Source: Amphiura filiformis (Eukaryota > Echinodermata > Ophiuroidea > Amphilepidida > Amphiuridae). From it: DNA of 64,000 bases. Of this stretch, positions 2,350-28,920 are shown piece after piece. The stretch's first letter is position 1. Every line of letters begins with the position of its first letter. The stretch is taken from NCBI RefSeq assembly GCF_039555335.1, contig NC_092637.1:44533613-44597612 (forward strand). The letters are read 5' to 3'. Position numbers and translations under genes: made by a program. The notes below the pieces were generated by a model, which was not told the origin of the DNA, did not search any database, and was given only the letters and a program-made list of their open reading frames with translations.

Positions 2350-2865
2350 AAGTGCACCCACCCCACCCCCGGCATTTTCAGACTCCTAGGTTTAGATTAG
2401 GGTATAATTTCAACTGGTATTTGTTTTTTCATTCTAAATAAGTCTGGAAAAAAATTTAGCAAAATTTGTGAACATTTTCCAGAATTCTGCCATTTTACCT
2501 TTTATGATGAACAGAAATAATTTCAAAGTCTATAAAACACTGTTATAGTCAAACTTAAAAATACAGAAATTAGTTTGAGCCTTAGACTCAACATTAGACT
2601 CAAAATAATTTCTTTATCTCAAATGGAATATCAAGTAATGTTCTATTTTTAAAAATTACTGTTTATCAATTTACTAAATTCCACACCAAGACAAACAGCC
2701 ATGAATACATTCTGGTGGCTAACTAAAATGTAAGAAATTCTTTACACACTTACTGTACAATGCACAGCAGGGACTGCCTTTTGAGGAGAGCCAGAGCAAT
2801 CGCTCTCTACTGCTCTCCTTAAATCTGATATAAGAGTGATATTTAGCTTTCCTTAGTTGACCATT

Positions 2866-4353
2866 GAGGTAGAAGAGGCCTTAAGACAAATGAAGGACAA
2901 CAAGGCACCAGGCATTGATGATGTTACAAGTGACATAATCAAAGCCGGGGGAGAAGAGGCAATACTACAGCTAACAAAACTTTACAATCAAATACTGGAA
3001 ACAAAGAAGATACCAAAGAAATGGAAAGAAGCTAAAATTATTTTACTTCACAAAAAGGAGGACAAGGCAGATATCAAAAACTACCGCCTAATCAGCCTTC
3101 TTTCTCATGTATACAAGATATTCACAAAAATCATCCAAAGCAGATTAAAAGCTACATTAGACCAAAATCAACCCAGAGAGCAAGCGGTTTTAGGGGAAGA
3201 TTCTCAACCACAGATCACCTACAGGCGATAAATCAACTGATTGAAAAATCAAATGAATACCAGCTTGATTTATGTCTTGGTTTTATAGATTACCAGAAAG
3301 CATTTGACTCCATAGAGCATACGGATATGTTTGATGTACTGAGGAAGAGCGGAATAAACGAAAACTACATCTGCATCCTAGAAGATATATACACAGATGC
3401 CATCGCCAAAATACACATAGATAATGATGTTTCCAAGGAGGTGAGAATAGAGAGAGGAGTGAGACAGGGAGATACATTATCACCAAAGATTTTCACAGCA
3501 GCACTGGAAGAGGTTTTCAAAAGTCTAACCTAGAGAGAAAAGGAATCAACATCGACGGGAGATGTTAACAGATCTTAGATTTGCAGATGACGTTGCACTA
3601 ACAACAACATCGGTGAAGGATATGGAAGACCAACTGAACAGCTTGTGCAAAGAAAGTATACATGTGGGACTACAAATGCACAAAGGAAAAACACAGTTTA
3701 TGACAAACTTTGAGACAAAAGAAACAATCACAATAGCAAATCACCCGATCAAGAAAGTTGACAACTATAAGTACCTAGGACAGACCTTGAGAATGGATAC
3801 CAACACAGCTGAAGAGATCCTAATCCGTGTAAAGGCAGGTTGGAGATGCTTTGGTATGCATAAAGAACTGTTGACAGATAAAAACATACCACTGTCACTG
3901 AGGCGAAGAGTTTATGACCAGTGTGTGCTAACAACTATGACCTATGGTGCAGAGACTTGGTCCACAACAAAAGAAATGGAACAGAAATTGGTAACAGCAC
4001 AGAGAGCTATGGAAAGGAAAATGCTCCACCTCTCATTGCGTGATAGAGTCAGACATACAGACATCAGAAAAGTAACCCAAGTCAAAGACATCTTGCAAAA
4101 GATTAAAGAAACTAAATGGAGATGGGCAGGTCACTTATCAAGAACTGACGATAACAGGTGGACGAAGAGACTTACAGAATGGCAGCCAAGGACTGGAAAG
4201 AGGAGAAGAGGAAGGCAAAAAAGACGATGGAGAGATGACATCACCACCTTCATGAGTACAACAGCTTGGGCATCAGCGGCTAGGAACAGAAGGAGATGGA
4301 AAATGCTGGAGGAGGGCTTCACACAGCAGTGGGTGAAACAGCCTGATGAGTGA
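2866..4353 (+). pseudogene. Reverse transcriptase ORF of the RTE LINE, frameshifted
   Basis: The encoded polymerase would make cDNA from LINE RNA at a nicked target. Visible RT blocks, in order, are KAPGIDDVTSDIIKAGG, a WKEAKIILLHKK block, FIDYQKAFDSI (first catalytic Asp), GVRQGDTLSP, and FADDVALT (catalytic Asp pair), followed by NYKYLGQTL. The C-terminal part carries YGAETW, KWRWAGHLSR and RGRQKRRWRDDI, typical of the RTE/BovB group. The reading frame changes near 3185 and again near 3530, so no full RT can be made. The endonuclease region is absent. Clade assignment rests on motif recognition and would need a tree. Confidence 0.85.
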
Positions 4354-4360
4354 GTGAGTG
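2866..4360 (+). mobile_element. 5'-truncated RTE-type LINE with 11-bp target duplication
   Basis: The insert is flanked by a perfect 11-bp direct repeat AGTTGACCATT (2855-2865 and 4361-4371). Its 3' end is the short tandem TGAGTGAGTGAG directly after the stop codon, as is usual for RTE-clade LINEs, which end in simple repeats instead of poly-A. It lacks the endonuclease and starts just before RT motif 1, a typical 5' truncation. Confidence 0.9.
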
Positions 4361-4479
4361 AGTTGACCATTCTCTCCTTACATTATTTTGTAAATGCTCT
4401 AAACAGCTCTCCTTGAAGGCTCCAGAAGAGCTATTTAATGCTCTCCTGCAAATTCCAAAAGACAGTCCCTGACAAAGTA

Positions 4480-4790
4480 ATATGTAACCTGTTACCACAA
4501 AATGAGCGTAAAGTCCCAAGTTGGTGGTTTCAACTTTCGAGACCTTACAGTTCTTGAGTTGATGTTCTTTGTTTGAAGACACCTGTACATGTAGTCAGTG
4601 GTATGTCCTTTGTGAATGAGGACATAATAATGTATTTAATTCTATCCCCATTCACAAATTTCAAGATTTCACTGCCAATACAGACGTTTTCATGCAAAGA
4701 ACATTAACACAACAGTCAGAATGTCTTAAACCTCCCAACTTGCGACTTTTGTCGTGGGAGCAGGTCACATATTGTAAAATTTCTGACAAA
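4480..4790. repeat. Palindromic repeat unit, uninterrupted copy
   Basis: The outer ends ATATGTAACCTGTTACCAC and GTGGGAGCAGGTCACATATT are imperfect inverted complements, with a second inverted pair around the TTTGTGAATGAGGACAT segment. The counterpart in arm B (27150-28170) is the same palindrome carrying two insertions, so this copy shows both empty sites. Confidence 0.65.
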
Positions 4791-5209
4791 ATTGAAAGTA
4801 AATTACCAAGAGATTTCTAGTTAATAAATTGTTAAAAATGTCTATTGGCAAATTTACTTCTGGATTAGCAAAATTCAAAATCTTTGATATCGTCCCAATT
4901 AGAGCATTTCAGGCTTTGTTATTAATGTGGTATTTTACGACAACAATGCACATCAGAATCATGTAAACAAATTTTAGAAGAAAAATGGACTTTTCAAGTT
5001 GAAATCCATACACTCTCTATGGAAGACATGACGTTAAAATTAAATCAATCTTCCACACACACAGTTAATTTCAAATGGAGTTACCTGCATGGGTGACTTC
5101 TTTTGAAATCTACACCCCTGTATGGGAGAATAAGGTTATGTCTTTAATAAGGAGTATATTCACCAATTAGAGCGAGTTCTTAGTTATGAGTGAATCCTAC
5201 AATAATGCT

Positions 5210-6073
5210 TTAATTGTCTTTAGAAAATTGAATGAGTGTGTCAACCATAGAAAAGAACTCGCTATGATCCGGTCTGATGACGCTATACTGGTAGCTTCTG
5301 CTCCCTGATGGCTCCTGCTGTGGGGCCTTCTCTGCTGAAGAAGCATACTGCCTCAATGCAGGATGGTAAACACCTGACGATGATGCAGCTTGGGCCTCAT
5401 TGAAATTAACAGCAAAAGCATCACTGTAAGGTCTGTGTAAGAGTTTTTTGCTAGAAGTAACTTGGGCTTCATTTGTGGTACTCAGAGATTCAGTGTCAAA
5501 CCTGGCTGTACGCTTTTGCTTGCCTCCATAGTTTTAGCAGCTACAGCGCCACTGTCGGGTCTATGTAAGAGTGTCCTATGTGGTCTTCTGTTGTTACCAT
5601 GACCAGTGCGTTTGATACCCAAGTGAACTTGCTTTTTATGCGCCCTCATATTACTGTAGTTGTTAAACGTTTTATCGCACATGTCACATTTATGTTTGCG
5701 CTGTCCCATGTGTACTTGCGTGTGCGCGTTCAGATCGCATTTCCAGCGGAATTTTTTGAAGCAGATATCGCACTTGAATCGCATTTCTTGGTGACGCAAC
5801 CTGTGGTTGTACAACTGTTGATTCGTACGGAAACATTCATTGCATTCGGGACATTTATTCGGCTTTTCCCCGGTGTGAATTGCTTCGTGCTCCCGAAGGA
5901 ACAGCTTAGTTTGGCAACCTTTCCCGCAGTGCATACAGACAAACTTGTACCCGGTATGGTGCTGCATGTGTACCTTCAAACAGGCGGGGCTGACAAGACG
6001 TTTTTTGCAAATATTACATTCAAATTGCTTCCCGTTCACATGCAATGATTCGTGTTCAAGAAGCCGTTTTCTC
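5210..6073 (-). pseudogene. Out-of-frame C-terminal zinc-finger segment of gene A
   Basis: This is the continuation of the gene A finger exon beyond a premature stop. Compared with gene B, one extra base lies in the stretch GGGAAAAGCGTTTTATGAGAG (minus strand, about 6075-6090; gene B has one base fewer), which shifts the frame just after CQYCGK. From about 6060 to 5516 an open frame still encodes six typical C2H2 fingers (FECNIC, FVCMHC, NKCPEC, FKCDIC and HKCDMC among them, one with the TGEKP linker). A second indel at about 5513-5516 (four A where B has five) moves the frame again, so the B-like tail down to the homologous stop at 5210-5212 is unreadable. Either the gene has decayed or the assembly has indel errors; raw reads would decide. 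Confidence 0.75.
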
Positions 6074-8970
6074 TCATAAAACGCTTTTCCCGCAGTATTG
6101 GCACATTGCTTTGCCTTGCGTGTGCATTTTCTTGTGTTTCTGAAGGCTTATTATGTTCTTGCAAACTTTGTCGCAAACATCACATTTTTTGCTTCCGGTA
6201 TGAGTTAGCATGTGTCGATCATAATGTGATTTTACGCTGAATGTTTGAAAACAAACTTGACATTGCAATGCAGTGCCATCGTGTACTTCCTTTTCATGCT
6301 TGCCTCGATCTCGAAAAAATGCAAACGATTTGTCACAATCGATACTCCTACAGGGGTACCTCGGGGGTAAATCCTTGGCCCTTTCACCGCCTTTCCCATC
6401 ATGAACTACCTTTCTATGTCTCTGCAGACTAAGGTTATTCTTGCACACTTTTTCGCAAATATCGCAAACGTTATCATCCGAATGAATCAGAATATGTCGT
6501 TCGTAGTGACTTTTAAACGGAAACGTTTTATCGCACTCTTCACATGTGTAAATTTCTTTCGCGACATCATGAGCGTCTATCTCATGCTGTTTTCGATCTT
6601 TCAAATATAGAAACGATTCCTTACAATCATTATTCCTGCACCGATACTTTAACGCCTCCGTCTCGTGAGCTGCCTGTTTGTGCCTCAGCAGACTCAGTTT
6701 ATTCTTACACACTTTGTCGCAGATATCGCAAATGTTTTCATCCGAATGAATCAACATATGACGTTCGTAGTGACTTTTAAACAAAAACGTTTTATCGCAC
6801 TCGTCACATGTTTGCAATACTTTCATGTCATCGTGAGCTTCTTTCTCATGCTGGGTTCGATCTTTTGCATGCGGAAATGATTCGTTGCAATCGTTATCCC
6901 TGCAATGATACTTAAACTCCTCTGTCTTGTGAGCTGCCCTTTTGTGCCTCAGCAAAGTCGCTTTAGTCTTGCACACTTTGTCGCAGATATCACAGACTTT
7001 ATCGTTTGAATGCATCCACATGTGTTGTTCGTAAACGCTTTTAAACGGAAACGTTTTATCACACTCTTCGCATTTATAATCTGCTCCTACCACGCCACCG
7101 TGAACTTCTCGCTCATGCTGGTTTCGATCTTTCTTATTCGGAAACGATTCGTTGCAATCTTTACTCCTGCAGAGATGCCGTAACGGCAACTCGACTATCT
7201 CGTGAGCCGCCCGTTGATGTCTCAGCAAACTCAGTTTATTTTTGCACACTTTGTTGCAGATTTCGCACACTTTATCGTCTGAATGAATCCACATGTGTTG
7301 TTTGTAGAAACTTTTAAATGGAAACGTTTTATCACACTCTTCGCATTTGTAAACTTGTCCTTTCAAATTCTTCTTTTTCCCAAATGTCTTCCTTCTCCTT
7401 TTGCTTCGTGTTGGTACATACTCCTCCTCATCCTCTTCGGCATCACTTTCGGATTCGTAAATGGATTCGTCAACATATTCCTCTTTTATGTCAATAACTT
7501 CTGGAGTCACAATTTGTTTTCGTTTCCTCCTAGGTCTTACCTTCCTTCCTTCCGTCTCACTTTCATCTTCTTTCATATCCATCATTTCCTGACTTTTAAT
7601 CCGACTTATCTTGACAACATAATCTACATCTGTCTTTGCCGCATCCCCGTTTCGATTTGCATCCTCATCCCCAAATTCCTCCATTTTCAACACACCCAAA
7701 TCATCCGTTGATAACCTCTCAATTTTCACTTCACATTCACGAACTGGCACCTCAACCAGGTCATCATCTTCGTCATCACCGCTGCGGTTCTGTCTCTCCC
7801 CGGCTTCATCTTTGTCAACGCTTTGGTCCGCATTAGGGTGCGCTATCGATATGTGCCGTATCAACCCTTGCATATTCTTATAAAGTTTATTGCACAATTT
7901 ACACTCCTGTATCCGAGTATGCGTTAACTTGTGACGCTTAAGGTGACTTGGCGCATGAAAAGATTTACTGCAGACGTTGCAATTCCACTTACCCGTCCAC
8001 CTCTTTCGGCTCTTTTTACCTTTCTTTGAGGGATTTTCGGTTTGCGTTTCCGCATTCTGAACTCCCTCGAGTCTGAATACCACAGTGTCATCAGTTGCTT
8101 CACAAAACATCTCAAGAGCGCTCTTACTTGCACCTACCCCACCACTATCATCACTTTGTCTGCTTTTCTGTTTCTTCGCCATAGCTTCCGCATGTTCACT
8201 CCTGTTGTGTATCAACAACGCCCCCGCATTCTTATAACTTTTTCGTTGAGCTTGCGTGTGTACTAATAACATGTGACGCTGATACAAAACTTTTTTCTGG
8301 AAAGTTTTCTTGCAGTGACCACATTCAAACACGTTTTTGTCATGGTATGTTTTCTCGTGATGGAGCAAGCTACTCTTCCGAAAGAATGTCATGGAGCAGA
8401 AAGGACTTCGACATCGATACATGTAATTTCTGATGTTATGAAACTGCTTCCGTCTACAAGAGATGTTTGGCCTTCTCTCAGATGCATGACCTTTCCCAGC
8501 ATCTGCTTCACTGTTCCCAATACTTTGACCATCATTGGAGGTGTGGGTTGTCCTGTTCTCTTCTGACAATGTCCCTTTGTTCCTCGATATACTTGCCTCT
8601 TCTTTATCTATAGAATCTTCATTGCTACAATTTGATCCATTCATTTCCCTGATTAACCCACTGTCAATCAATAATTCTGGACATTCTTTGACAACAGGTG
8701 TCTTTCCTGTCTTCTCGCCTTCACACTGAGTCCATGCATCTACCATCTTCACCTCATGACCCACAGTTGACCTCTGACCTAAACTTGACCTCTCTGTCTC
8801 TTTTGAAGACAGTTCCTTCAGATCTCCTTCATACTGACTCCAAGCATCCACCTTGTTGAATGAGGAGCAATCTGCCTGGTGTTGGCTCTTGATATGATCC
8901 TGCCAGTTGGCAAGGGCGCCCTCACAGAAAGAACAGCTCACCATGTGCCACTTGATATACTTGGATGCAG
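6074..8970 (-). CDS. Poly-C2H2 zinc-finger protein, gene A, finger exon (exon 2)
   Basis: Probable nuclear DNA-binding protein. The exon begins after a good acceptor (CTATTTTTCAG, minus strand) and joins exon 1 in phase 1, giving about 1350 residues up to a premature stop. In order: a degenerate N-terminal C2H2 finger (CSFC...H..H, about residue 398); acidic linker; two fingers near 570-625 and two near 713-770; a long acidic/basic linker with SUMO-type sites VKIE, LKME and IKEE and basic nuclear-signal-like RPRRKRK and TRSKRRRK; then, from about 926, four tandem three-finger modules (ECDKTF / CDICDKVCKN / C-x4-DC-x2-SF types) plus the start of a final eight-finger run. The regular module suggests expansion by unequal exchange. 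The target sequence is unknown. Gene B is its inverted paralogue. Confidence 0.85.
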
Positions 8971-9287
8971 CTGAAAAATAGGAAAGAATGAAGGAAGATA
9001 TAATGAGTGAGGTAAATTCATACATATTGGTGATGAGTTTTTAAACAAAAAATTAAAACATTTAAAAATGTTTAGAATTGGTGGTATAAAAAGTTACGGT
9101 TAATAACTGCGTATTTATACTTGTTTAATAGAGAAATTGGACAAATTCATGCACACGGGCTGGGTTGTTGATGTGCCTAATGCAGAAGCCCCCATTGGAC
9201 AAGCATCAATATTCAGCCCAAATACACTGACTTGTCTATTTCCTCTAACAGCAGGTAATACACAGTTTGTAACCCATTTCATACATT

Positions 9288-9803
9288 TAAGGGGGTACTA
9301 CACCCCTTGATAAATTTGTAACTATTTTTGCATTTTTCTCAAAAACTAATAAAACACTGGTAACAAAAGTTATGTATATTATAGGGGCAAGGAATCCAGT
9401 TACTACACTGGAATTTCAGTGACTCAAAACAAGTAGTTATTGATTTATTGATCAAATATTGGTTTTCCCTCATTTTTGACTGTAACTCCACAACTTTTGT
9501 CTGTGCTGAAATAAAATTTCCAGTGCAGTAGTTGTAGTCCTTGCCCCTATACTGTAAAAGTAAAAAAAAAAAAAAATCTCTTGAAAATAACCTTTTGCAT
9601 TAGGTTTCTATTGTATCAATATCAAAACCGCCAAATTTAATTCTCGCGCAATTGACAAAATCTTCAAAATCGCGAAAATGTCTTCTCGCGAAAATATTGA
9701 CTTTTACAGTAATATACATATCGTACTTGTCACCAATGCACTAATTTTTTGGGGGGGAAAAATGCAAAAATAGGCTCAAAATTGGCCAGGGGTGTACCAC
9801 CAT
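9288..9803. mobile_element. Foldback element in gene A intron
   Basis: The ends TTAAGGGGGTACTACACCCC and GGGGTGTACCACCATAAG are imperfect inverted complements. The arms also share TTTTGCATTTTTC / GAAAAATGCAAAA and AGTTATGTATATTATAGGGG / CCCCTAT...AATATACAT. The right arm is interrupted by the MITE at 9552-9709. Confidence 0.65.
9552..9709. mobile_element. Mariner-type MITE with TA duplication and readable empty site
   Basis: The ends CTGTAAAAGT and ACTTTTACAG are inverted complements bordered by TA (9550-9551 and 9710-9711). The left arm of the host palindrome shows the pre-insertion sequence (CCCCTATAATATACAT in reverse complement), so the TA duplication is proven from within the window. 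The interior is rich in CTCGCGAAAAT motifs. Confidence 0.85.
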
Positions 9804-11391
9804 AAGAGAGAAATCCTGCAATTTTTGCTATATTTTCACTCTCTCCTATAAATAAAGCTTGAAGAAAATTTAAAACCATATAAAAAGGTTGAAGTGTCAT
9901 GTATAACGTAAATATACAGGACCGTAGCCAGGATTTATTTTAGATGGTGGACCTTTTGACAAAAATTGTTCTAAAAAAGGCTGATTTGAATGTTTTTAAT
10001 ACAGAAAAAAAGATCACATTTTGTGAATTTTTCCTTCACATGGCCAAGGTGATGTGGGGGTGTGACCGGAAACATGGAATCAACTTTTATTAGCCTAAAA
10101 AAGCACACTGTTTGGAGTCCGGATTCTATTAAGTCTATTAAGTCTAATCTAGCCGTGTTCACATTGTCGGACATACGCCCCAGCGGAACTTGGTCAGCGC
10201 AAGTTGCTAGGAGTAGCAGTAGGCGGTACCAGTAGTACCGTAGTGGCAGTGTGAACAATAGTCAGCGTTCCGCCAGGCGTACGTCCAACAATTTACTCCT
10301 GACAAAAGAGAGTTGGGTGTAATCTCCATGTATGCTGCAATATGAATGCTACTACAGCTGGCACTCAGTTAGACTATGCCATAGTCGATTTTTGATAAAT
10401 AAAAATACGTTATTAATCATGATGAACGCATTCAGTTGAACTCGAATTTATACTGATATTTATTACATCAAATTACTAGTATAAAATGGTTATGAAAAAG
10501 TTTATATAATTATATTTGTGACAGTAAAAGTAAAGTATCGTGAGGCTTATATTATTGAATGCAACATATCATAATAGCATAACTGTAATGGCACTCCAAT
10601 ACTGAACAATTCTAATTTTAGAATCTGCCAGTTTATTACGATTTAAAATCGACTATGGACTTTCACTTTTAAGCAGAACTTTACCCCGGGACTCACACAC
10701 TGTCAATCATACTTGTTTATCACTAAAATCTAACCACAAGACTAAGCATGGTGGTACAATACGCGCTAGATGCATACGTTCATCCACCAGCACAAAAGCG
10801 CCGCATTCCCTAGATAGTTGTGTACCATGTATAGTTATAATGGTACCAGTACGCGTCGGGAGGATTTAAACAATAACGAGATCTGGGCGACCAATTACAA
10901 GCCAGATTCATTTTAAAGATGCATTACATCATCACAATTTTAGTTAGGCCAGAAATTGGCCTAACTCTCAAGGCAAAGTCAGTAGTCCACTTGGGAAGCT
11001 AACATACAGAGGGAGTACGGTGACTGAAAAGATGATCAGTTGTGAAAATCTATCAATTGTGCACAAATTATTTAAATCGGAGTTTTAAGCTTAAATGCAA
11101 TATCCAAAGTATGCACATTCATGACAATGGGCAAGTGGACTACGGAGTACTCAGTGTATGTTTGACCTTTTTTGGTCGGAAAAAGGTCACAGAAACACCG
11201 GAAATGGTAGCCGATGTTTACGCCAACTAAAAGTGAATGCTTGGTGGAACTGGCCGGCATAGTGCTAGGAGTAGGCTAGGTGTAGACATGCAGTATGAGT
11301 AGGGAAAATATTTGTGGAATTTTTATCAATGTAAGTCTACCGTGACATCGGGTGTAACTCAAAATGTGAACACAACTTTTATCTGCCCTAC

Positions 11392-12547
11392 CTTCATCAT
11401 CAGTACCATTCCTCCAGCTGATGTACACTTGTATCATTTGTTTGTTGGAGTCCTTCATCATATCTCCTCCTTCAGGTCCATCATCTCCTTCAAGGACATT
11501 CTGCTCTTCAGTGACAGGAAGTCTCTCAAGATTGTCATCGGCTTCCAAGGGAACATCCAGATCTTCAGCCTCTTGGATAGCATCCTGATTTTCAATTTCA
11601 CAAAAGTTATCATGGTCTTCAGCTTCAATGATCTGATCATCAGTTTCAGTGATGGTGCTATGACTGCTTTCAGTCTCACTAGTTACCCTAGCAACCTTCC
11701 GATTATCAGTCTTGAGCAAAGTGTACTGATCTTCAGCATCCTCACAATCAGTCTCAATTTCAGATTCAGTTTGGGAGCTGTTAGTGTCATCATCACACGC
11801 TGCAGTAGAATTTTCAGTTTCATTCAGGGAGTTGTATTTATAAGCATTTGATTCAATACCAGCACTTGGACTTTGAGTGTCATTCAGGGAGCTTTGAGCA
11901 GTGGTTTCAGTAACATCACTTGGATTTTCAGCTTCATTCAGGGAGCTTTGAGCAATAGTTTCACTGGAAGATGTTGAATTTCCAGTTTCACATACATGTC
12001 CGAAGTTTTGATCAGTGGCCTCAGTGACAGCACTTGGATGTTCAATTTCATTCAGGGAGCTTTGAGAATTAGTTTCACTGACATCAGTGTGATGTTCACT
12101 CTCATTCAGGCAGCTCTGTGCAGTGGTCTCACTGAAATAATTTAAATGTTCAATTTCATTGATAGAGCTCTGAGCATTAGTCTCACTGATGTCACTGAGC
12201 TTGTCAATCTCATTATGGGAGCTTTGAGCAGTGGTACGATTGTCAGCACTTGAATGTACAGTTTCATGCAGACTGCTTGACATACTTTGAGACTCATTAT
12301 GAGCATTCAAATTTTGGTTTTGCGTTCCACAGAGGGCGGTCTCATTATCAGTACCATCTGTACTCTGGTCCACCGTTGTTCCTAAATTCTCATCAGTCAA
12401 TCTGTTGTCTTCCTCCATTGCTAGAGAAGTATGAGGAGGCAGCTCAGGGATGGGAGTGTTGTCATCGCTGCTGGTTGCCTGGACAACTACATTTTGTCTG
12501 GGGCTTAGTCCCCCATCTTGGGGGATTTCATCATCATCAGTCTCCAT
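11392..12547 (-). CDS. Poly-C2H2 zinc-finger protein, gene A, acidic exon 1
   Basis: First coding exon, 385 codons plus one base, starting METDDDEIPQDGGLSPRQ. The same start and first 18 residues occur in gene B, which supports the ATG. The product is acidic, rich in Ser/Thr/Asn/Glu and without zinc fingers, so it may act as a protein-interaction or activation region (inference). Residues about 85-250 are an imperfect peptide repeat of about 20 residues built on the theme SETxAQSSLNEIEHxSxV, absent from gene B. The end ISWRNGTDDE is conserved with B and precedes the donor GAAG|GTAGGG. A pyrimidine-rich acceptor ending GAACAG lies 70 bases upstream of the ATG (exon start about 12617), so an upstream 5' UTR exon is likely. 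Confidence 0.8.
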
Positions 12548-12617
12548 CTTGTAAGTTTATGGTACGGTAGCATCTATGGTGAAGTGTACAAATTGTGAGC
12601 AAAACTTTGTTGATGAT
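12548..12617 (-). promoter_or_regulatory. 5' UTR part of gene A exon 1 with 3' splice site
   Basis: On the minus strand the tract CTTTTCTTTATTTTTGAACAG ends at an AG, followed by ATCATCAACAAAG and, 70 bases on, the start codon. The same AG and downstream bases occur upstream of gene B (20987) and in a third copy at 13410. This indicates an upstream untranslated exon, not a transcription start at this point. Confidence 0.5.
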
Positions 12618-13318
12618 CTGTTCAAAAATAAAGAAAAGGAAAATGAGTTCTAAATAAATCGCAGTCCGTAAACAAGATCTAGTTTAAGATTTCTCATCAC
12701 CAAATAATGTCTCTAAAGGCCTTCCATCCTTATACATTGTTTTTACATTTCAGTAAACCATAAAGGAATATCAAAAATTAAAAAAATTGAGCAGATTTTG
12801 TGAAAAATTTGTGCCAGGTATTAATTGTAGGCTTGGATCCAAGCATCTCCCAAAATTTTAACAGACTCTGTGTTTTTTATTCAGATTTTAAATGTATTTC
12901 TCTATTCTGGAAATGGGATGAGCAAACTTGATAGTCTTCGCAGTCCAGTAATTTGAAATTCAATGGTCACCAATATATTTCTTTGTTTGTTTACTTGCTT
13001 GTTTGTTTGTCTTTCAGGAAAATATTACATCAAAAAATTGAGTCGCATCGTAAGCAGAGTCTTAGCTAGAAATTGAGAGTTGCCAGTCATTTGAATAAAA
13101 TTGCCTGTCCTAATTTGACCTTTAAAACATTTACCAGACGTCTATTGCCCATTGGGGGTTCAAAGAGTTCAAATATGTGCTGATGGCTATCAAAGACCCT
13201 GATCGTAAGGTAGGTAGAACCATTTGAATAGAACCCATTTTGTACACAAAGTATAGGGAAATTTATTAGTATTGTGCTACCTTTTAAAACTATAATCAAA
13301 ATAATAGCAGGTACTCAC

Positions 13319-13410
13319 AAGTCACATCCAATATGAGTCCGCCTCAATCATGTGATATGGTATCATCAACTGTGAAGTGCAGAAGTTGTGAGCATAACAT
13401 TGTAGATGAT
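13319..13410 (-). other. Candidate alternative 5' exon (duplicated exon-1 leader)
   Basis: On the minus strand TTTTTATTTTCTAACAG|ATCATC begins the segment and GTGACTT|GTGAGTACC ends it, giving a 92-base exon with good acceptor and donor. It is a divergent copy of the leader just upstream of gene A's ATG, followed in both by the same ACAAGATCTAGTTTA block. It could be an upstream or alternative untranslated exon of gene A. The plus strand has an open frame over it (13333-13605), but splice-signal conservation explains the similarity better. Confidence 0.4.
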
Positions 13411-14266
13411 CTGTTAGAAAATAAAAAGAAAAGGAAAATGATGGCAGTCCATAATACACAAGATCTAGTTTATAAGGCCCATTCAGTGACTTGCTCATCC
13501 GGACGATATATCCAAATTAAGATTTTGGTACCTTTGTCATTGTCATATATATCTAGATGTGCTAACATAGCCTGCGAGTGGTTCAGCCAAAAGCAGTGTA
13601 TTTAAGACGAAATATGACATTTTACACGAATCTATAATTTAGATACTGACAGTATATCTAAATTAGCTACATATCCCGCTACATATATTTGAATGGGGCT
13701 TCAATTTCGTCAGTACTACTGTTTTCTTCGTTTTTTTTGCCAAATTTGTCATTTCAAAAATACCAAATGACAATTTGAATGACTTGTCCTTCACTTTTAA
13801 ACAATTTATAAACAATTTTAATTTTTTTACACTTGCGCTGGGATCACTGAACACCTCTCTTCGTTGTCATGATTCTGAGAAAATAACCAGAGAAAATTGC
13901 TGATTCCAACCAGTTTTTATGTCTTTCCTCACAACACTGGAAAGTTCTCAGTGTATTGTAGGCTCCTTCTAACTATTTCTTGCTGCCCTAAAAAAAAAAA
14001 ACCAACAAAAAAAAACACCATCCCAGAGCCCAGAAGCCTCGAACCGAGGCTACGAGTAGGCCTACACACAATATTTTCATCGACCCGTCTGTCTGCTGAA
14101 CTATATACCCATCATAATGACGTCATTAATTATAAATATGCAGGTTTTTTTATTCTAAACAGTATTTTACTTAGAAGTACGAGGACATGATTAAATCACA
14201 TGTAACACGTCATGAAATATATTTGTATAACACTCTACATTTGTAGGTTTGGAGTAGGCCTATACT

Positions 14267-18837: not shown

Positions 18838-19721
18838 AGGGGCTGTCCATAATTTTCGCCATTTTCACTTACGTACAAAGCGTCACGTAACTTTTTACCC
18901 CCTCCCTCCCTCGAAGTTACGCATACAAATAAAATGGCGAAGTATTTGAGTACTACTTATAGCAAAATTGAGATGTTGGGTTGGGGTTTTGGTTAGAGTT
19001 AAGGTTACGGTTTGATTAGGGTTAGGGCTAGTGTTCCAGGAGAACAGTTGGTTCTGGATTAATATTTTTACAGATAAGTTAAGAAATGCTAAAAAAAACC
19101 TTCCTTTTAAACCATATTTTCATGAAAACGAGAGCCATCAATAAATTAAAATATAGCTTAAAATGCAGCCCGAATCTTAACTAAAAAACCAATGCACCCC
19201 AAAATCTACCGAACACCCCAATACTCTCTTTTCCACTAAGAACCCCCGGGATCACATCATATATAGGGGAACCAGGGGGACTTCCTTTTGGCATATTTGG
19301 TGTATATTCTTGCAATTTTGACTATATGTGTTTTGTCGCAACAGTGACAATCCACACTTGAGCCTCTGCTGCCATTGATCCTATCGCAGATAGAAATATT
19401 TTCTTAATGTATTTTGGTATGAAATAAAATTAAGCATAATGTACCACTGTGCATAGACTCTAAAATAAAGAGAAGAGAAAATCATTGTTTGCATGGCATG
19501 TTATAGAAATTGTTAGAACGAATTGAACAATTTTAGGTCAATTGGTTATAACTTATGAATAAAATAATGGAAAATACCATAATTTTTCACTTTCATTTTT
19601 TTATTGCTCAAACAAATCGCCATTTTTCTTACGTACACATGCCCAGGATTTTTACCCCCTCCCTCCCTCTTACGTACGCTTTGTACTTAAGTGAAAATGG
19701 CGAAAATTATGGACGGCCCCT
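18838..19721. mobile_element. TIR element, 884 bp, about 47-bp TIRs
   Basis: The ends AGGGGCTGTCCATAATTTTC and GAAAATTATGGACGGCCCCT, continuing with GCCATTTTCACTTACGTAC / GTACTTAAGTGAAAATGGC, are inverted complements. A direct AACTA flanks both sides (18833-18837 and 19722-19726). No transposase frame is visible, so it is non-autonomous. Confidence 0.75.
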
Positions 19722-19769
19722 AACTATCAAAATAGGATTTAGCTATGTTTCATTTGGCAAAAGGAGATA

Positions 19770-20021
19770 ATATGTGACACGATCAAGGGAAATGAGTCGG
19801 ATGTCGCTAATATTGATTTTGAGATATTGGCAAAGAAAGTATTAAAATTCTTTTGTTTTATATTGTTTTCAGCGATTGATAAATTGACGTAACTTCACAA
19901 AGAAAAGTCGTATCAACATGGGGTTTCTGAAAGCTCTGAATGTCATCTTAAGAAACATGTGTAAAACTCATTTTCGACCAGGGCCGACATGTGACTCATT
20001 CCCCTTGATCATGTCAGATAT
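19770..20021. mobile_element. MITE with ATATGTGACACGATCAAGGG ends, copy 1
   Basis: The left end ATATGTGACACGATCAAGGG and the right end CCCCTTGATCATGTCAGATAT are inverted, with about 29-bp arms ending in ATGAGTC / GACTCAT. A second copy at 28173-28431 shares the whole interior. Confidence 0.8.
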
Positions 20022-20209
20022 GCTTTTATTCCAAAAAATTACTGCTGTATTTTTATCCCCACATGGCCTTTACGAGGGGGATATTGCGATAGTGTATTCC
20101 TTCTGTAGGGGTGTGTATGTATGTAGGGTATGTTCCATTTTGGTTAGGTTTTGCCTTCTGCCTATTTTCTCAGAGACTAGGAGCTACTAGGTCTCACGTT
20201 CCTCAAACT

Positions 20210-20723
20210 TGGTGGGTGGGTGGGTGCATCTTGACCCGAGACAGAACAGGTTTGTATTGGTTAGTGGGTCAAGGTCACTGAGGTCATCCAGGGGTCATCT
20301 GAGGTCAAATTAGTAAAAACTCATATGAGCATGAAACTTGGTGGGTACAGTCAACATTTAAAGCCAAATTTTTGGAAGGTCACCAGGGTCATCTGAGGTC
20401 AAATTAGTAAAAACTATCAGATGGGCTTGAAACTTGGTGGGTACAGTCAACATTATAAAGCAAAATGTTTGGAAGGTCATTTTGGGGTCACCAGGGGTCT
20501 TCTGAGGTCAAATTTGTAAAAACTGTCGTATGGGCATGAAATTTTGAGGGTACAGTCTACATTTAGAGCCAAATTTTTGGAAAGTCATTTTGAGGTCACC
20601 AGGGGTCATCTGAGGTCAAATGAGTAAAAACTGTCGGATGGGCATGAAACTTGGTGGGTACAGTCTACATTTAGAGCCAAATTTTTGGAAGGTCCTTTCG
20701 GGGTCACCAGGGGCAGGGGGGCC
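20210..20723 (+). repeat. Tandem repeat, unit about 95-110 bp, GAGGTCAAATTAGTAAAAAC
   Basis: Four to five units repeat the order GGGGTCATCTGAGGTCA, AATTAGTAAAAACT, GGGCATGAAACTTGGTGGGT, ACAGTC and AGCCAAATTTTTGGAAGGTC. Unit starts are seen near 20301, 20394, 20503 and 20612. It resembles the GACCTTTGACC-type arrays inside the Helitron-like elements farther right. Confidence 0.75.
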
Positions 20724-20865
20724 TCTGAGGTACAAGTTTACTGACCGCCCAGCCAGGGGGATCGCATGGTTCGAGAACCGCCTATTTTTCTGGAATAGGG
20801 AGTAGATCTTGTTTACGTACCATGCGATCCCCCTGGCTGGGCGGTCAGTAAACTTGTACCTCAGA
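20724..20865. repeat. 47-bp perfect inverted repeat, strong hairpin
   Basis: 20724-20770 and 20819-20865 are exact inverted complements with a 48-base loop; the outer parts read TCTGAGGTACAAGTTTACTG and CAGTAAACTTGTACCTCAGA. The stem is GC-rich near GCCCAGCCAGGGGGATCGC. It lies at the edge of the preceding tandem repeat and could be the terminal hairpin of a transposon. Confidence 0.85.
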
Positions 20866-20879
20866 TGACCCCTGGTGAC

Positions 20880-20980
20880 CTTCGAAATGCCTTGAGCGCT
20901 CTTAATTGAGTGGATATGTGCCTTGTCGCTATTATTATTATTATTTATTAAAACTCATTTTTTTTTTTTTTTTTTTTTTT
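20880..20980 (+). mobile_element. Retroelement 3' tail with (ATT)n and poly-T
   Basis: GAGCGCTCTTAATTGAGTGG, then ATATGTGCCTTGTCGC, is followed by (ATT)n and a tract of about 24 T. A GCGC-type segment followed by ATT repeats is a common 3' end of invertebrate LINE/SINE retroelements (recognition from family habit, not proven). The homology between arms A and B stops at this tract. Confidence 0.45.
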
Positions 20981-21052
20981 GAACAGATCATCAACAAGGT
21001 TTTGCTGACAATTTCTGCACTTCACAGTGATACCGTACCATAAACTTACAAG

Positions 21053-21545
21053 ATGGAGACTGATGATGATGAAATCCCCCAAGATGGGGGACTAAGCCCC
21101 AGACAAACTAATAATCACAACTCCCTGAATGAAACTAAAAAAATTCCTGCAGCTTGTGATGATGACACTAACAGCTCCCAAAATGAATATGAGACTGATT
21201 GTGAGGGTGCTAAAGATCAGTACACCTTGCTCAAGACTGATAATCAAAAGGTTGCTATGGTAACCAATCAGACTGAAAGCACCATCACTGAAACTGATAA
21301 TGAGAACATTGAAGCTGAAGACCATGATAACTTTTGTGATATTGAAAATCAGGATGCTGTCCAAGAGGCTGAAGATCTGGATGTTACCCTGGAAGCTGAG
21401 GACAATCTTGAGAGCCTTCCTGTCACTGAAGAGCAGAATCTTCTTGAAGGAGATGATGGAACTGAAGGAGGAGAGGTGATGAAGGACTCCAACAAACAAA
21501 TGATACAAGTTTACATCAACTGGAGGAATGGTACTGATGATGAAG
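21053..21545 (+). CDS. Poly-C2H2 zinc-finger protein, gene B, acidic exon 1
   Basis: First coding exon of the inverted paralogue, 164 codons plus one base, beginning METDDDEIPQDGGLSPRQ exactly as in gene A. It is acidic and finger-free, ends INWRNGTDDE, and is followed by the donor GAAG|GTAGGC in phase 1. Relative to gene A, about 220 residues of the serine-rich peptide repeat are missing between SPRQ and NSLNETKKIPAACDDD, so the repeat was either lost here or expanded in A. A splice acceptor (poly-T then GAACAG) lies at 20986, so transcription should start farther upstream, outside the duplicated segment. Confidence 0.8.
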
Positions 21546-22800
21546 GTAGGCCAGACAGATTGTTGTTTAAATGCAAGAAAGTCATTTGTATCCAGGTCCA
21601 GGTGTAGGGTCTGGATGGTCGGTCAGGGTAGTATCCTGGGCAAATGTGGATTGCTGGAGCTTTGCCTTGGGGCATGTGACTGGTTAGGAACTTGGCGAGA
21701 ACAACTTTATTTTGGACCATGTCACCCAACACCCTGATCAGCCTAGGGGCCCTACCAGGTCGCTGATGATTAGGGTAATATCCTGGGCACATGCAGATCG
21801 CTGGAGCTTTACCCCTGGATGGGGTCTGGTTAGGAACTGGGCGAGAGAACGAAGTCCTTCATGTTATTGTCACCCAACGCCCTGATAAGGGTAGGAGCCC
21901 TACCAGGTCCCTGATCAGGGTTGGGATTCTCTGGCATACACTCTGTCTGCTGCCCGCCTTTTCCCTGTGGCAGGTTTTACTGTATACATATATTTTTACT
22001 GTTCTTTTTGTTTGCCATATCTTGTGTACTTCATGTTGGACTTTCACAAAAGGTCCACTTTTTTCTGTAAAATGGTTTAAAATTTTCTTCAAAAGGAGAG
22101 TGTGACTGGAAATAATTATAGCAAAAATTGCAGGATTTTGTATGAAATAGGTTACAAACCGTGTGACCTGCTTCTAGTGGAATTAGACAAGTACTTGTGT
22201 TGAATGGTGATGCTTGTCCAGTGGGGGCTCGTGCACAAGACAGCCCTCGAATTAACCCACGGCACCCATAGCATTTTGCCGTGGGTGCCCAACCCCACTG
22301 CCGTAATGCCCTCAAAATATGTCCTTTACCCAAGGCAGTCACTTGCTGTGCCCTCTAATGAAGTTGCCGTCGGTGCCCCAGCCCTGCCCCTTCATTATAA
22401 AATCATATATGTTTGTGTGTGGTTTTTTTTTCACTTTTGAGAAATTGCCTTGGTGCCCTTCTCAAATTTTCAACAGTTGCCATGATGCCCTCTTGAAATA
22501 TTACAAACTGCTGTGCTGCCTTGCCTTTTCAGTGAAAATCCAAGGCAATTATCAACTTGCCCTAAAAAAGTTGCCGTGCCCCTTCAGATCCTTAATTCGA
22601 GGGCTGGCACTAGACAGTCCCCAGTTACATGGGCATGGAGCATGAGCATGGATTTGTCTAATGTCTATCTGAACAAGTCATATCCAGTTCTTAATTTTAC
22701 TATAATTAAGAACTCTCACCACCATGTAGTCTTGAGCTATTAACCCGCATAGGGCTATTCTCACTCACCATTTCTTCCTTCATTCTTTCCTATTTTTCAG
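21546..22800 (+). other. Intron of gene B
   Basis: GT at 21546 and AG at 22800, phase 1. It contains two copies of a roughly 140-bp direct repeat (about 21615-21760 and 21760-21925; shared words include ATCCTGGGCA, GCTGGAGCTTT, TGGTTAGGAACT and CCCTACCAGGTC) and a hAT-type MITE at 22241-22606. It is about half the length of gene A's intron. Confidence 0.75.
22241..22606. mobile_element. hAT-type MITE, TGCC-interior variant
   Basis: The ends CAGCCCTCGAATTAA and TTAATTCGAGGGCTG are perfect inverted complements, flanked by GCACAAGA (22233-22240) and GCACTAGA (22607-22614), an 8-bp duplication with one mismatch. The interior repeats TTGCCGTGGGTGCCC-like words many times. The terminal core TCGAA(T)TAA resembles the TCGAAATAA core of the elements at 14267 and 16715. 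The element is absent from gene A's intron. Confidence 0.85.
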
Positions 22801-24158
22801 CTGCATCCAAGTATATCAAGTGGCACATGGTGAGCTGTTCCTTCTGTGAGGGTGCCCTAACCAGATGGCAGGATCATACCAAGAACCAACACCAGGCAGA
22901 TTGTTCCTCATTCAACAAGGTGGACGCTTGGAGTCAATATGAAGGAGATCTGAAAGAACTGTCTACAACAGAGACAGAGAGGTCAACTTTAGGTCAGAGG
23001 TCAACTGCGGGTCATAAGATGAAGATGGTAGATGCATGGACTCAGTGTGATGGTGAGAAGACAGAAAAGACACCTGTTGTCAAAGAATGTCCAGAATTAT
23101 TGATTGACAATGGGTTAATCAGAGAAATGAATGGATCAAATTGTAGCAATGAAGAGTCTATGGATAAAGAAGAGGCAAGTTTATCCAGGAACAAAGGGAC
23201 ATTGTCAGAAGAGAACAAGACAACACAGACCTCCAATGATGGTCAAAGTATTGGGAACACTAAAGCAGATGCTGGGAAAGGTCATGTATCTGAGAGAAAT
23301 CCAAACATCTCTTGTAAACGGAAGCAGTTCGATAACATCAGAAATTACATGTATCGATGTCGAAGTCCTTTCTGCTCCATGACATTCTTCCGGAAGAGTA
23401 GCTTGCTCCATCACGAGAAAACACACCATGACAAGAATGTGTTTGAATGTGGTCATTGCAAGAAAACTTTCCAGAAGAAAGTCTTGTATCAGCGTCACAT
23501 GTTAGTACACACGCAAGCTCAACGAAAAAGTTATATGAATGCGGGGGCGTTGTTGATACACAACAGGAGTAAACGTCCGGAAGATGTGGCGAAGAAACAG
23601 AAAAGTGGACAAAGTAATGATAGTGGTGGGGTAGGTGCAAGTAAGAGCAATCTTGAGATGTTTCGTGAATTAACTGATGACACTGTGGTATTCAGACTCG
23701 AGGAAGTTAAGAATGCGGAAATGCAAACCGAAAATCCCTCAAGGAAAGGTAAAAAGAGCCAAAAGAGGTGGACGGGTAATTGGAATTGCAACGTTTGCAG
23801 TAAATCTTTTCAAGCGCCAAGCCACCTTAAGCGTCACAAGTTAACGCATACTCGGATACAGGCGTGTAAATTGTGCAATAAAGTTTATAAGAATATGCAA
23901 GGGTTGATACGGCACATATCGATAGCGCACCCTGATGCGGACCAAAATGTCAACAAAGATAAAGTTGGGGAGAGACAGAACCGCAGCGGTGATGACCTGC
24001 TTGAGGTGCCAGTTCCCGAATGCGAAGTGAAAATTGAGAGGTTATCAACGGATGATTTGGGTGTGTTGAAAATGGAGGAATTTGGGGATGAGGATGCAAA
24101 TCAAACGGGATGCGGCAAAGACAGATGTAGATTATGTTGTCAAGATAAGTCAGATTAA
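22801..24158 (+). CDS. Poly-C2H2 zinc-finger protein, gene B, exon 2, N-terminal frame
   Basis: Begins after TATTTTTCAG with the split codon G|CT and continues AASKYIKWHMVSCSFC, a degenerate C2H2 finger. Two fingers (CRSPFC and FECGHC) and two more (WNCNVC and ACKLCNKVYKN) follow, as in gene A, then the linker with VKIE and LKME sites. A two-base deletion relative to gene A at 24101-24110 (AATCAAACGGGATG versus AATCGAAACGGGGATG) throws the frame, and translation stops at 24158. The predicted product is about 616 residues, with five of the fingers and none of the modular array. Truncation, or an assembly indel, are both possible. Confidence 0.8.
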
Positions 24159-26265
24159 AAGTCAGGAAATGATGAAAGGAGATGAAAGTGAGACTGAAGG
24201 AAGGAAGGTAAGACCTAGGAGGAAGCGAAAACAAATTGTGACTCCAGAAGTTATTGACATAAAAGAAGAATATGTTGACAAATCCGTTTACGAATCCGAA
24301 AGGGATGCCGAAGAGGAGGAGGAGGAGTATGTACCAACACGAAGCAAAAGGAGAAGGAAGACATTTGGGGAAAAGAAGAATTTGAAAGGACAAGTTTACA
24401 AATGTGAAGAGTGCGATAAAACGTTTCCATTTAAAAGTTTCTACAAACAACACATGTGGATTCATTCAGACAATAAAGTGTGCGAAATTTGCAACAAAGT
24501 GTGCAAAAATAAACTGAGTTTGCTGAGACATCTACGGTCGGCTCACGAGACGGAGGTGTTAAAGTATCGGTGCGGGAATAACGATTGCAACCAATCATTT
24601 CTATGTTTGAAAGATCGAAAACAGCATGAGATAGAAGCTCATGATGTCGCGAAAGAAATTTACACATGTGAAGAATGCGATAAAACGTTTCCGTTTAAAA
24701 GTTTCTACAAACAACACATGTGGATTCATTCAGACAATAAAGTGTGCGAAATTTGCAACAAAGTGTGCAAAAATAAACTGAGTTTGCTGAGACATCTACG
24801 GTCGGCTCACGAGACGGAGGTGTTAAAGTATCGGTGCGGGAATAACGATTGCAACAAGTCATTTCTATATTTGAAAGATCAAAAACAGCATGAGATAGAA
24901 GCTCATGATGTCGCGAAAGAAATTTACACATGTGAAGAGTGTGATAAAACGTTTCCGTTTAAAAGTGTTTACGAACGACATATTCTGATTCATTCGGATG
25001 ATAACATTTGCGATATTTGCAAAAAAGTGTGCAAGAATAACCTTAGTCTGCAGAGACATAAAAAGATTGTTCATGTTGGGAAAGGTGGTGACAGGGCCAA
25101 GGATGTACCCCTGAGGTACCCCTGTAGGAGTATCAATTGCGACAAATCATTTGTATATTTACGAGATCGAGCCAAGCATGAAAAGGAAGTTCACGATGGC
25201 ACTGCATTGCAATGTCAAGTTTGTTTTCAAACGTTCAGCCTCAAGTGCCTTTATGATCGACACATGCTAACTCATACAGGAAGACAAAAATGTGATGTTT
25301 GTGACAAAGTTTGCAAGAATGTATTAAACCTTCAGAAACACAAGAAAATGCACACGCAAGGCAAAGCAATGTGCCAATACTGCGGGAAAACATTTAATGA
25401 GAGAAGCCGGCTTCTTGAACACGAATCATTGCATGTGAACGGGAAGCAATTTGAATGTAAAATTTGTAAAAAACGTCTAGTCAGCCAGTCTTATTTGAAA
25501 GTACACATGCAGCACCATACGGGATATAAATTTGTCTGTATGCACTGTGGGAAAGGCTGCCTAACTAAGCCGATTCTGCAGGAACATGAAGCGATTCACA
25601 CTGGGGAAAAGCCGAACAAATGTCCCGAATGCGATGAATGTTTTCGCACGAATCAACAGTTGCGCAACCACAGGTTGTTTCACCAAGATATGCGATTCCA
25701 ATGCGATATTTGCTGCAAAAAATTCCGTTGGAAATGCGATCTGAACTCTCACACCCAAGTACACATGGGTCAGCGTAAATATAAATGTGACATGTGCGAT
25801 AAAAAATTTAACAACCAAAGTAACATGAGGGCGCATAAAAAGCAAGTTCACTTTGGTATCAAACGCACTGGTCACAGTAAAATTGGACGACCACATAGGA
25901 CACTTTTACACAGACCCGACAGTGATGCTGTACCTGCTAAAGTCATGAAGGCAAGCAAAAAGCGTACAGCCAGATATGACACTGAATCTCCGAGTACCAC
26001 AAATGAAGCCCAAGTTACTTCTAACAAAAAACTCTTACACAGACCTTACAGTGATGCTTTTGCTGTTAATTTTAATGAGGCCCAAGCTGCATCATCGTCA
26101 GGTGTGCACCATCCTGCATTGAGGCAGTATGCTTCTTCAGCAGAGAAGGCCCAACAGCAGGAGCCATCAGGCAGCAGGAGTTACCAGTATAGCGTCATCA
26201 GACCGGATCATAGCGAGTTCTTTTCTATGGTTGACACGCTCATTCAATTTCCTAAAGACAATTAA
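24104..26265 (+). CDS. Poly-C2H2 zinc-finger protein, gene B, exon 2, main finger array (shifted frame)
   Basis: Open frame of about 720 codons in another phase from the upstream part. It starts with the acidic/basic linker (RPRRKRK, IKEE and TRSKRRRK), then three three-finger modules (nine fingers), then eight C-terminal fingers, including TGEKPNKCPEC, and a finger-free tail ending FFSMVDTLIQFPKDN before TAA. The first ATG in this frame (24082) lies just upstream of the indel. AATTAAAG overlaps the stop and could act as a poly(A) signal. Gene A has four modules where this copy has three, two of them near-identical. If the indel is real the array needs its own start; if it is an assembly error, genes A and B would be similar full-length proteins. 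Confidence 0.8.
24394..24921 (+). repeat. 264-bp tandem duplication of a three-finger module
   Basis: Two consecutive 264-bp copies (88 codons, three fingers each) differ at only a handful of sites, with an identical run of roughly 160 bases from TTTAAAAGTTTCTACAAAC to CGATTGCAAC. The modules in gene A are visibly more divergent from each other, so this is a recent unequal exchange or conversion in gene B. Confidence 0.9.
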
Positions 26266-26354
26266 AGCATTATTGTATGATTCACTCTTAACAACTAACA
26301 ACTCCTTCTCATTGGTGAAATTAATATACTATTTATTGAAGACATGACCTTAAT

Positions 26355-26799
26355 ACAGGGGGGGGGGGGGCTCTTGGAAGTGACAGGGATATGTAGACAG
26401 CAGTTTAAAACTAGGGGTCTTTCGAAAAAGGGGGGGTCTTTCAGTGAGAAGATCCCAAAAAGGGGGGTCTTTCTGTGAGACTGGAAAATCTGACCAAAAA
26501 AGGGGGTCATTCAGTGAGACTGGGAAAAATTTTGGGTCATGAATACTCATGATGTATAACAGTTGATTCAAAATTTTGAAAAATAATGAAAAAATGGGGT
26601 CATGCAGTGAGAGATCAGAAATTTCCCAAAATTTTTGAAAAATGTGGGTCTTTTGGTGACAGGAAAACAAAAAAGGGGGTCATTGGGCGAGAGGGAGTTC
26701 AGTAATACAAAAAGGGGTTCATTGGGTGACAGGGAGTTGAAAAATGGGGGTCAATGTGGCCGCACATCCCCGTCATCCATTTTTCATGAGTGCCCCTGG
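26355..26799. mobile_element. hAT-like insertion in the 3' flank of gene B, 8-bp duplication
   Basis: A perfect ACCTTAAT flanks it (26347-26354 and 26800-26807), with ends ACAGGGGG and TGCCCCTGG. The interior repeats GGGGGTCTTTCAGTGAGA and GGGGTCATTGGGTGACAGGG. The same place in arm A (about 5116-5145) is uninterrupted, so the insertion happened after the duplication. A degenerate relative lies at 1890-2198. Confidence 0.85.
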
Positions 26800-27320
26800 A
26801 CCTTAATCTCCCACCATACAGGGGGGTGTAGATTTCAAATGAAGTCACCCATTCAGGTAACTCCATTTGAAATTGACTCCCTGTGTGGAAGTTATTTAAG
26901 GTCATGTCTTCCATAGGGAGTAATGGATTTCAACTTGAATAGTCCATGATTTTGTTCTAAAATTTCTTTTCTGTGAAAGATTTTCACAAGATTTTGATGT
27001 GCATTGTTGTCGTAAAATACCACTTGAAAAACAAAGCATGATGTGCTCTAATTTCGATAATATCAAAGATTTAAGTTGTATTTCCCTTAATATCCAGAAG
27101 TATATTTGCCGATAGAAATCTGTTTGTAATTTGACTTGCAGTTTTGTCAGAAATGTTACAATATGTGACCTGCTCCCACAAAATTGGTGTAAATTTGCAA
27201 GTTGGGAGTTTCGAGATGTTCCAAATGTTGAGTTGATGTAATTGCTTGAAGACACCTATTGGCAGTGTGGTACATGCATCCTTTATGAATAGGGACAGAA
27301 TTGAATACATGTACAAAGTA

Positions 27321-27376
27321 TAAGGGTGTGAGTGAGTCCCGGGAATTTGAGTCCCGCCCGAGAATCCTATTACCTA

Positions 27377-27407
<31 letters not shown>

Positions 27408-27634
27408 TTTTTTTTTTTGGTTTTGTAGTGTCTCTGGACCTAGACCTAAATGCTAGGATCATTCATGGTTGACCTAAAAAAAAATTGAATTTTGCACATT
27501 GTTTTGTGTTTTTAATATGAAAATTGATACATAGTTTTCATGTCATACTCTATTAATGCATTGAATACCCGGTTACCCGCCCGAAAAATCCGCCGGGTAC
27601 CCGGGCACAAAATTACCCGAAAATCACACCCCTA
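27321..27634. mobile_element. hAT-like MITE with GGGTGTGA ends
   Basis: The ends TAAGGGTGTGA and TCACACCCCTA are inverted, flanked by ACAAAGTA and CCAAAGTA (7 of 8 match). The interior contains a long poly-T tract (27379-27419) and GGGTACCCGG-type words. Confidence 0.7.
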
Positions 27635-27733
27635 CCAAAGTACAGCATATTATGTCCCTATTCACAAAGGACATACCACTGACTATACCATGTATACAGG
27701 GACATGTCTTCAAACAAACAACAGCAACTCAAC

Positions 27734-28112
27734 AATTCTCGCGTTTCACAATACGATGCGCCTCCAGCGGTCGCTGGGTCGAGGTCAAAATACGCAGTGC
27801 ATCATGGGATAATGAGTCGACATCCAAAGCCTGTGTTATAAGAATACAATACAATGCCTCATTGTTGGTTTAAATGTCATTATGATGTTACATGCGAATG
27901 CACACTAAAACAACAATTTACAACTATAGTAGATCCATTTTCTATCTATTGATCACAGGGAATCCTTCGTGGAGCTGTTTTCAACATATTTATTATCACA
28001 CTCGCGTGAAAATTCAATAGCAGCTAGAACAGCGATGTCGACTCTGGAGTCGAAAATTTGACTGCCAAAAGCAACCGCTGGCGGCGCATCGTATTGTGAA
28101 ACGCAAGAATTG
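27734..28112. mobile_element. TIR element with AATTCTCGCGTTTCACAATA ends
   Basis: AATTCTCGCGTTTCACAATA, then CGATGCGCC, at the left and GGCGCATCGTATTGTGAAAC, then GCAAGAATT, at the right are nearly perfect inverted complements of about 30 bases. The interior holds further inverted words (AGCGGTCGCTGG and ATGTCGACTC). It interrupts the palindromic unit, and arm A has the empty site. Confidence 0.8.
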
Positions 28113-28172
28113 GAAGGTCTTGAAACCACCAACGTGCAACTTTATGCTCATTTCGTAAGAACAGGTCATCAC

Positions 28173-28431
28173 ATATGTGACACGATCAAGGGAAATGAGT
28201 CGGATGTCGCTAATATTGATTTTGAGATATTGGCAAAGAAAGTGTTAAAATTCTTTTGTTTTATATTGTTTTCAGCGATTGATAAATTGATGTAACTTTG
28301 CAAAGAAAAGTCGTAGTAACATGGGGTTTTCAGTTTCTGAAAGCTCTAATTGTCCTCTTTAGAAACATATGTAAACCTCATTTTCGACCAGGGTCGACAT
28401 GCGACTCATTCCCCTTGATCATGTCACATAT
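28173..28431. mobile_element. MITE with ATATGTGACACGATCAAGGG ends, copy 2
   Basis: Near-identical to 19770-20021 over its whole length and with the same 29-bp inverted ends. It lies two bases from the foldback at 28434. Confidence 0.8.
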
Positions 28432-28433
28432 CG

Positions 28434-28707
28434 TCAGCCTGCTACGCTAATTGCCTAAGTCATTTTTACATGTTTCTCATTTGCAATTTCTGAGTAGTAA
28501 TCCCGGGGTAATAATAAACCCATAATTAATCAAATTTCCAGCTGCAGTCTTCATTAACTTGTGGAATACATCAAAAGAGATGTATTCCACAAGTTAATGA
28601 AAAATGCGGCTGGAAATTTGATTAATTATGGGTTTATTACTCAGAAAATCAAAATTGCAAATGAGAAACATGTAAAAATGACTTAGGCAATTAGCGTAGC
28701 AGGCTGA
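28434..28707. mobile_element. Near-perfect palindromic foldback, about 130-bp arms
   Basis: TCAGCCTGCTACGCTAATTG at one end and CAATTAGCGTAGCAGGCTGA at the other continue as inverted arms almost to the centre (CATCAAAAGAGATG). One arm carries an extra AGTAATCCCGGGGTAAT. Not present in arm A. Confidence 0.85.
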
Positions 28708-28920
28708 TGATATATTACTGTACATTGGTAAGTACGGTATGTAAAGAATTTCTTACACATTACTATTTAGCTAACTACTATCATGTTTTAATGGTTGTGT
28801 ACTTGTGTGTATAGGTGTTGAATAATAAATTGAAAAACAGTAATTTAAAAAGAATATTACTTGCTTTTCCATTTGAGATAAAGAAATTATTTTGAGTCTA
28901 ATGTCACCTGTCAATCAAAC

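Follow-up and report, generated by a model that had tools for sequence, protein, structure and literature searches.

Single-base frame breaks in a head-to-head pair of C2H2 poly-zinc-finger genes of Amphiura filiformis: probably late or unreal

In a 64,000-nucleotide stretch of the A. filiformis genome (contig NC_092637.1, positions 44,533,613 to 44,597,612; hereafter the window), two related poly-zinc-finger genes lie in inverted orientation, and the reading frame of each, as assembled, is broken at a different place. The initial annotation of the locus offered three explanations, namely reciprocal decay after duplication, functional splitting of the gene into two shorter proteins, and indel errors in the assembly. 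What, then, do the breaks record?

An inverted pair of two-coding-exon genes

Matching the window against itself recovered the inverted duplication that had been proposed: the inverted arms carry two C2H2 poly-zinc-finger paralogues arranged head to head with their 5′ ends facing, copy A on the minus strand and copy B on the plus strand. Two overlapping inverted matches cover the zinc-finger exon, which we refer to as exon 3 (1967 columns at 87.7% identity and 2338 columns at 89.6%; E 0.0), and the first coding exon, exon 2, is matched at 12659–12493 and 11844–11382 in A and at 20943–21107 and 21108–21555 in B. Weaker inverted matches extend outward to 4630/27310 and 2591/28904; between the arms, the centre gave one 31-base hit (E 0.05). 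A tblastn search of the window with its own proteins, in which hits inside 5100–9100 and 22700–26400 were filtered, returned no zinc-finger copy beyond A and B at E 1e-4. The outer arm of A also contains, at 2857–4353, two ORFs that match RVT_1 below cut-off, for the second of which tblastn found no other copy in the window.

Elsewhere in the window lie a satellite of about 99 bases in 49.6 copies (29249–34079) with a related array of 6.0 copies at 37293–37872, self-palindromic stretches that are perhaps small transposons (1249–1743, 28428–28713, 50392–50830 and 53990–54427), and an ORF on the minus strand that matches UPF0640 weakly and below cut-off (42317–42919; E 0.001). Scans of the window gave no Rfam match at gathering scores and no tRNA.

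From the sequence, each copy was modelled as having two coding exons with a phase 1 junction. The predicted junction reads WRNGTDDE-AASKYIKWHMVS in A and B alike, the acceptor TTTTTCAG is common to the two zinc-finger exons, and both copies have an in-frame TAA four codons 5′ of the ATG. The first coding exon of A (11392–12547, minus strand; 1156 bases, or 385 codons plus one base) is acidic, contains 54-base repeats and ends at the donor GTAGG; its homologue in B occupies 21053–21545 of the plus strand (493 bases, or 164 codons plus one base). The reasoning of the initial annotation omitted this exon in both copies. The 54-base coding repeats, at 11852–12272, are mostly absent from B. Upstream of the first coding exon of A, at 13353–13441, is a second copy of its acceptor region and start, 81% like B 20955–21040 and possibly an extra exon.

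The zinc-finger exon of A (5210–8970, minus strand) holds 24 finger pattern matches, the last at 5688–5623, together with one finger broken by an excess base, and ends at a stop codon homologous to that of B; the zinc-finger exon of B (22801–26265, plus strand) holds 22 matches. In each copy the first finger match ends in C, not H. Four window proteins exceed the curated cut-off of 25.2 bits for PF00096 (zf-C2H2), with 138.9 bits for P0001, 60.5 for P0002, 44.6 for P0003 and 139 for P0004, and with their zinc ligands kept they belong among C2H2 zinc-finger proteins; the fingers suggest a product that binds DNA. Among six window proteins, a set that takes in the first coding exon of A but leaves out that of B, Pfam found only zinc-finger families, RVT_1 and, below cut-off, DUF7565; other frames were scanned as 10 ORFs of 38. 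A comparison of P0004 with viral contigs gave one stretch that fitted a pattern and 0 confirmed relatives.

Four three-finger modules are present in A, as had been described: A1–A3 (6545–7345, minus strand; period 264) and A4 (6544–6263), which pairs with B3. Copy B has three modules, of which B1 and B2 (24403–24906, plus strand) form a near-identical tandem pair (likeness 0.99 and 0.97). The first two fingers of B1 and B2 are A1-like and the third is A3-like (B1/A1 0.96; third finger of B1/A3 0.93), and B3 resembles A4 (0.94 and 0.91). These relations are what unequal recombination and tandem duplication would be expected to produce. In 16 hand-paired fingers, a set that excludes the first and broken fingers and any module lacking a one-to-one partner, DNA-contact positions had changed in 12 of 64 cells versus 23 of 210 cells elsewhere (P 0.13), and we make no claim of diversified DNA specificity between A and B.

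Duplicated C2H2 poly-zinc-finger genes are familiar from KRAB-type clusters and from PRDM9/PRDM7. Like those systems, the pair combines tandem-module arrays with module gain and loss and with disruption of some paralogues; unlike them, the six window proteins that we scanned (the first coding exon of B left out) gave no KRAB, SCAN, BTB or SET match.

Position and context of the breaks

Both frameshifts that had been reported in A exist. A one-base excess near 6084, its exact placement depending on the alignment, interrupts a finger and exposes a stop (6076–6074; the feature spans 6074–6084, minus strand), and a one-base deficit at 5514–5517 affects an A-run, with 4 bases versus 5 in B; the latter, however, lies in the tail, past the last finger match, and not within the fingers. 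Copy B does show the net two-base deficit that had been read as a −2 shift ahead of its array (24103–24107), but it aligns best as two one-base losses relative to A, a few bases apart (24102–24107, plus strand), in the linker between the fifth finger match and the array; a stop follows at 24156–24158. One further irregularity, two mutually compensating gaps of two bases near A 6870, falls in modules that are not one-to-one, and we read it as an alignment effect.

As assembled, the predicted product of A has 1350 aa and stops at 6074, and that of B has 616 aa, with 5 finger matches, and stops at 24156. The C-terminal array of B is indeed open, as a single 727-aa frame with its own ATG near the start. 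That each copy retains what the other has lost is thus true of open frames only: the 616-aa product of B corresponds to a region of the gene encoded by A as well, and because the break in B lies upstream of those in A, neither copy, when read from the normal start, reaches the last six fingers and the tail.

The two losses in B are its only differences from A in a 128-column tract with no A/B substitution (7732–7603), the longest identical tract in the exon columns compared (P 0.0115 versus uniform shuffles). Such identity points to recent homogenisation or to conservation of the tract, with the losses in B later still. Base runs recur at the breaks: the deficit in A is a run-length difference, one loss in B falls in a G-run, and the excess base in A adjoins an A-run.

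Coding constraint and depletion of indels around the breaks

Ka/Ks was estimated between A and B by the pairwise Nei–Gojobori method with a codon bootstrap, leaving out the module region without one-to-one partners. The most constrained segment was S3, which lies between the two breaks of A (5518–6083, minus strand) and comprises five complete fingers that are not in the frame set by the start: its Ka/Ks was 0.17 (0.10–0.30), with Ks 0.46 and 0 stops over 186 codons. The tail, S4, gave 0.22 (0.05–0.89; 101 codons, no stops), S2a 0.37 (0.12–1.50; 145 codons), S2b 0.39 (0.20–0.78; 170 codons) and S2c, a part of S2b, 0.35 (0.17–0.81; 114 codons). S1 was less constrained (0.50, 0.32–0.85; 432 codons), and in exon 2, where the comparison dropped gapped codons, the last four codons and the part before 11844, constraint was not demonstrated (0.82, 0.43–2.28; 143 codons). 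No compared segment of either copy contained a nonsense codon. The chance that S3 would show neither a stop nor a ligand loss was 0.0135 for 35 random substitutions and 0.075 for 20.

Indels tell a similar story. Along the aligned 3′ flank, 61 substitutions are accompanied by 15 indels, of which 11 break the frame; in an intron stretch, 35 substitutions are accompanied by 26 indels. Exon 3 outside the modules, with 217 substitutions, has 4 frame-breaking indels (the breaks counted in) where 36–39 would be expected at the 3′ flank ratio, a depletion of about ninefold (P below 1e-10). S3 with both of its bounding breaks has 2 indels versus 11.6–12.8 expected (P 3e-4 to 7e-4), and S1 with the break of B has 2 versus 13.4–14.8 (P 5e-5 to 1.5e-4). 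Exon 3 as a whole has clearly been held in frame; that S3 of A was held in frame on its own branch is a weaker claim, since the same test on half the branch gives P 0.046–0.071 for S3 (and 0.022–0.037 for S1).

These observations bear directly on the idea of long-standing reciprocal decay to two pseudogenes. The breaks are there in the assembled sequence, and S1 and exon 2 are less constrained, as decay would have it; yet the absence of nonsense codons from the compared segments and, in the module-free part of exon 3, the depletion of frame-breaking indels run against it, and we regard it as improbable, slightly more so than a division of the gene. In such a fission, by duplication and partial degeneration, A would supply the N-terminal part, and the downstream frame of B would separately supply the C-terminal array. 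The 1350 open codons of A, the open 727-aa frame of B with its ATG and the lowest Ka/Ks ratios in S3 and S4 all suit this account, and the monkey-king family offers a precedent, as cited in passages of PMC4249797 and PMC3395120. However, S3 of A, which should have been free to decay, agrees with B at 20 of 20 zinc ligands and has neither a stop nor an internal indel, though the indel test confined to half the branch is weak, and the first 432 compared codons of exon 3 in B are likewise without a stop. We consider fission improbable, if the least so of the accounts that treat the breaks as functional divisions or old losses.

Being pairwise and without an outgroup, the Ka/Ks ratios leave the constrained branch unassigned and would be compatible with splitting. 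If constraint were otherwise absolute, 17% of S3 divergence (upper bound 30%) could be neutral, which would amount to about a third of the branch of one copy (upper bound 60%). Genuine breaks might mark a fission that has only just begun, the half abandoned by A having had too little time to decay, an account that would fit the sequence but that we rate as slightly more improbable than old reciprocal decay. With monkey-king of Drosophila, a case of duplication–degeneration gene fission as cited in those passages, the pair would share duplicates broken in different places, as had been proposed; unlike that case as it is cited there, the part of the pair that should have been freed still looks constrained and the break in B lies upstream of those in A.

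The divergence of the two copies is uneven. Between 5518–6083 of A and 25391–25957 of B, synonymous divergence is about 4 times that of S1 and S4 and 2–3 times that of the adjoining upstream segment. Synonymous differences in S3 (35.5 of 103.5 sites) exceed those in S1 (26 of 251; P 3.5e-7), S4 (P 8e-4), S2a (P 1.2e-5) and the aligned 3′ flank (61 of 453; P 4e-6); S2c is intermediate (Ks 0.21; versus S1, P 0.09). At third positions of S3, differences lean to G or C in A, 24 versus 10. Change-points over all sites are barely supported (BIC 1571.9, 1570.9, 1570.0, 1576.1 and 1582.7 for one to five segments). The high synonymous divergence suggests a mosaic origin; it would be accounted for if gene conversion had left S3 untouched or if one copy had acquired S3 from a more distantly related paralogue.

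Origin of the breaks

Constraint that persists beyond each break could also mean that full proteins are still made, with a small intron or ribosomal frameshifting circumventing the breaks during expression; by arithmetic, a +1 shift would suit the excess in A and the deficit in B alike. We scored donor–acceptor pairs above cut-offs within 700 bases of the break in B and of the first break in A, using home-made matrices: the best frame-restoring pairs sum to 12.3 and 10.6, respectively, compared with 20.5 (8.8 + 11.7) for the modelled intron of A. Downstream RNA is no more stably folded than shuffled sequence in either of two stretches (z +1.00 and +0.85), although a stimulatory downstream structure is not required at all programmed frameshifting sites. 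Neither splice bypass nor a frameshift structure is thus supported by site scores or folding, and the second break in A would need a further event. We consider bypass very improbable, the least credible of the accounts weighed here.

The breaks are probably late or unreal, since the codons past each of them are constrained and frame-breaking indels are depleted. Of the three explanations first offered, assembly indels, or very recent mutation, fit best, while long-standing decay is disfavoured by the Ka/Ks of 0.17 in S3. Consensus errors in the assembly are, tentatively, the most likely source; null mutations that arose recently in one gene or in both are otherwise a possible, less likely one. 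According to PMC12007338, which deals mainly with small genomes, short indels associated with homopolymers make up most of the errors in long reads. Real indels favour base runs too, so that run context does not discriminate error from mutation, and with four one-base events in about 8.9 kb of modelled coding sequence, the error rate would be high for an assembly that has been polished.

Taken as a whole, our account, which we consider probable, is that a C2H2 poly-zinc-finger gene with two coding exons was duplicated in inverted, head-to-head orientation, that both copies would have been kept full-length through most of their recorded divergence while gene conversion, along with unequal recombination that added and removed modules, presumably reshaped them, and that the single-base breaks came late and would hold no record of an old reciprocal loss. 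The locus shows that complementary breaks can be weighed without reads, by means of constraint and indel depletion; if the breaks are genuine, it would offer a rare view of the onset of gene fission or of the loss of a duplicate.
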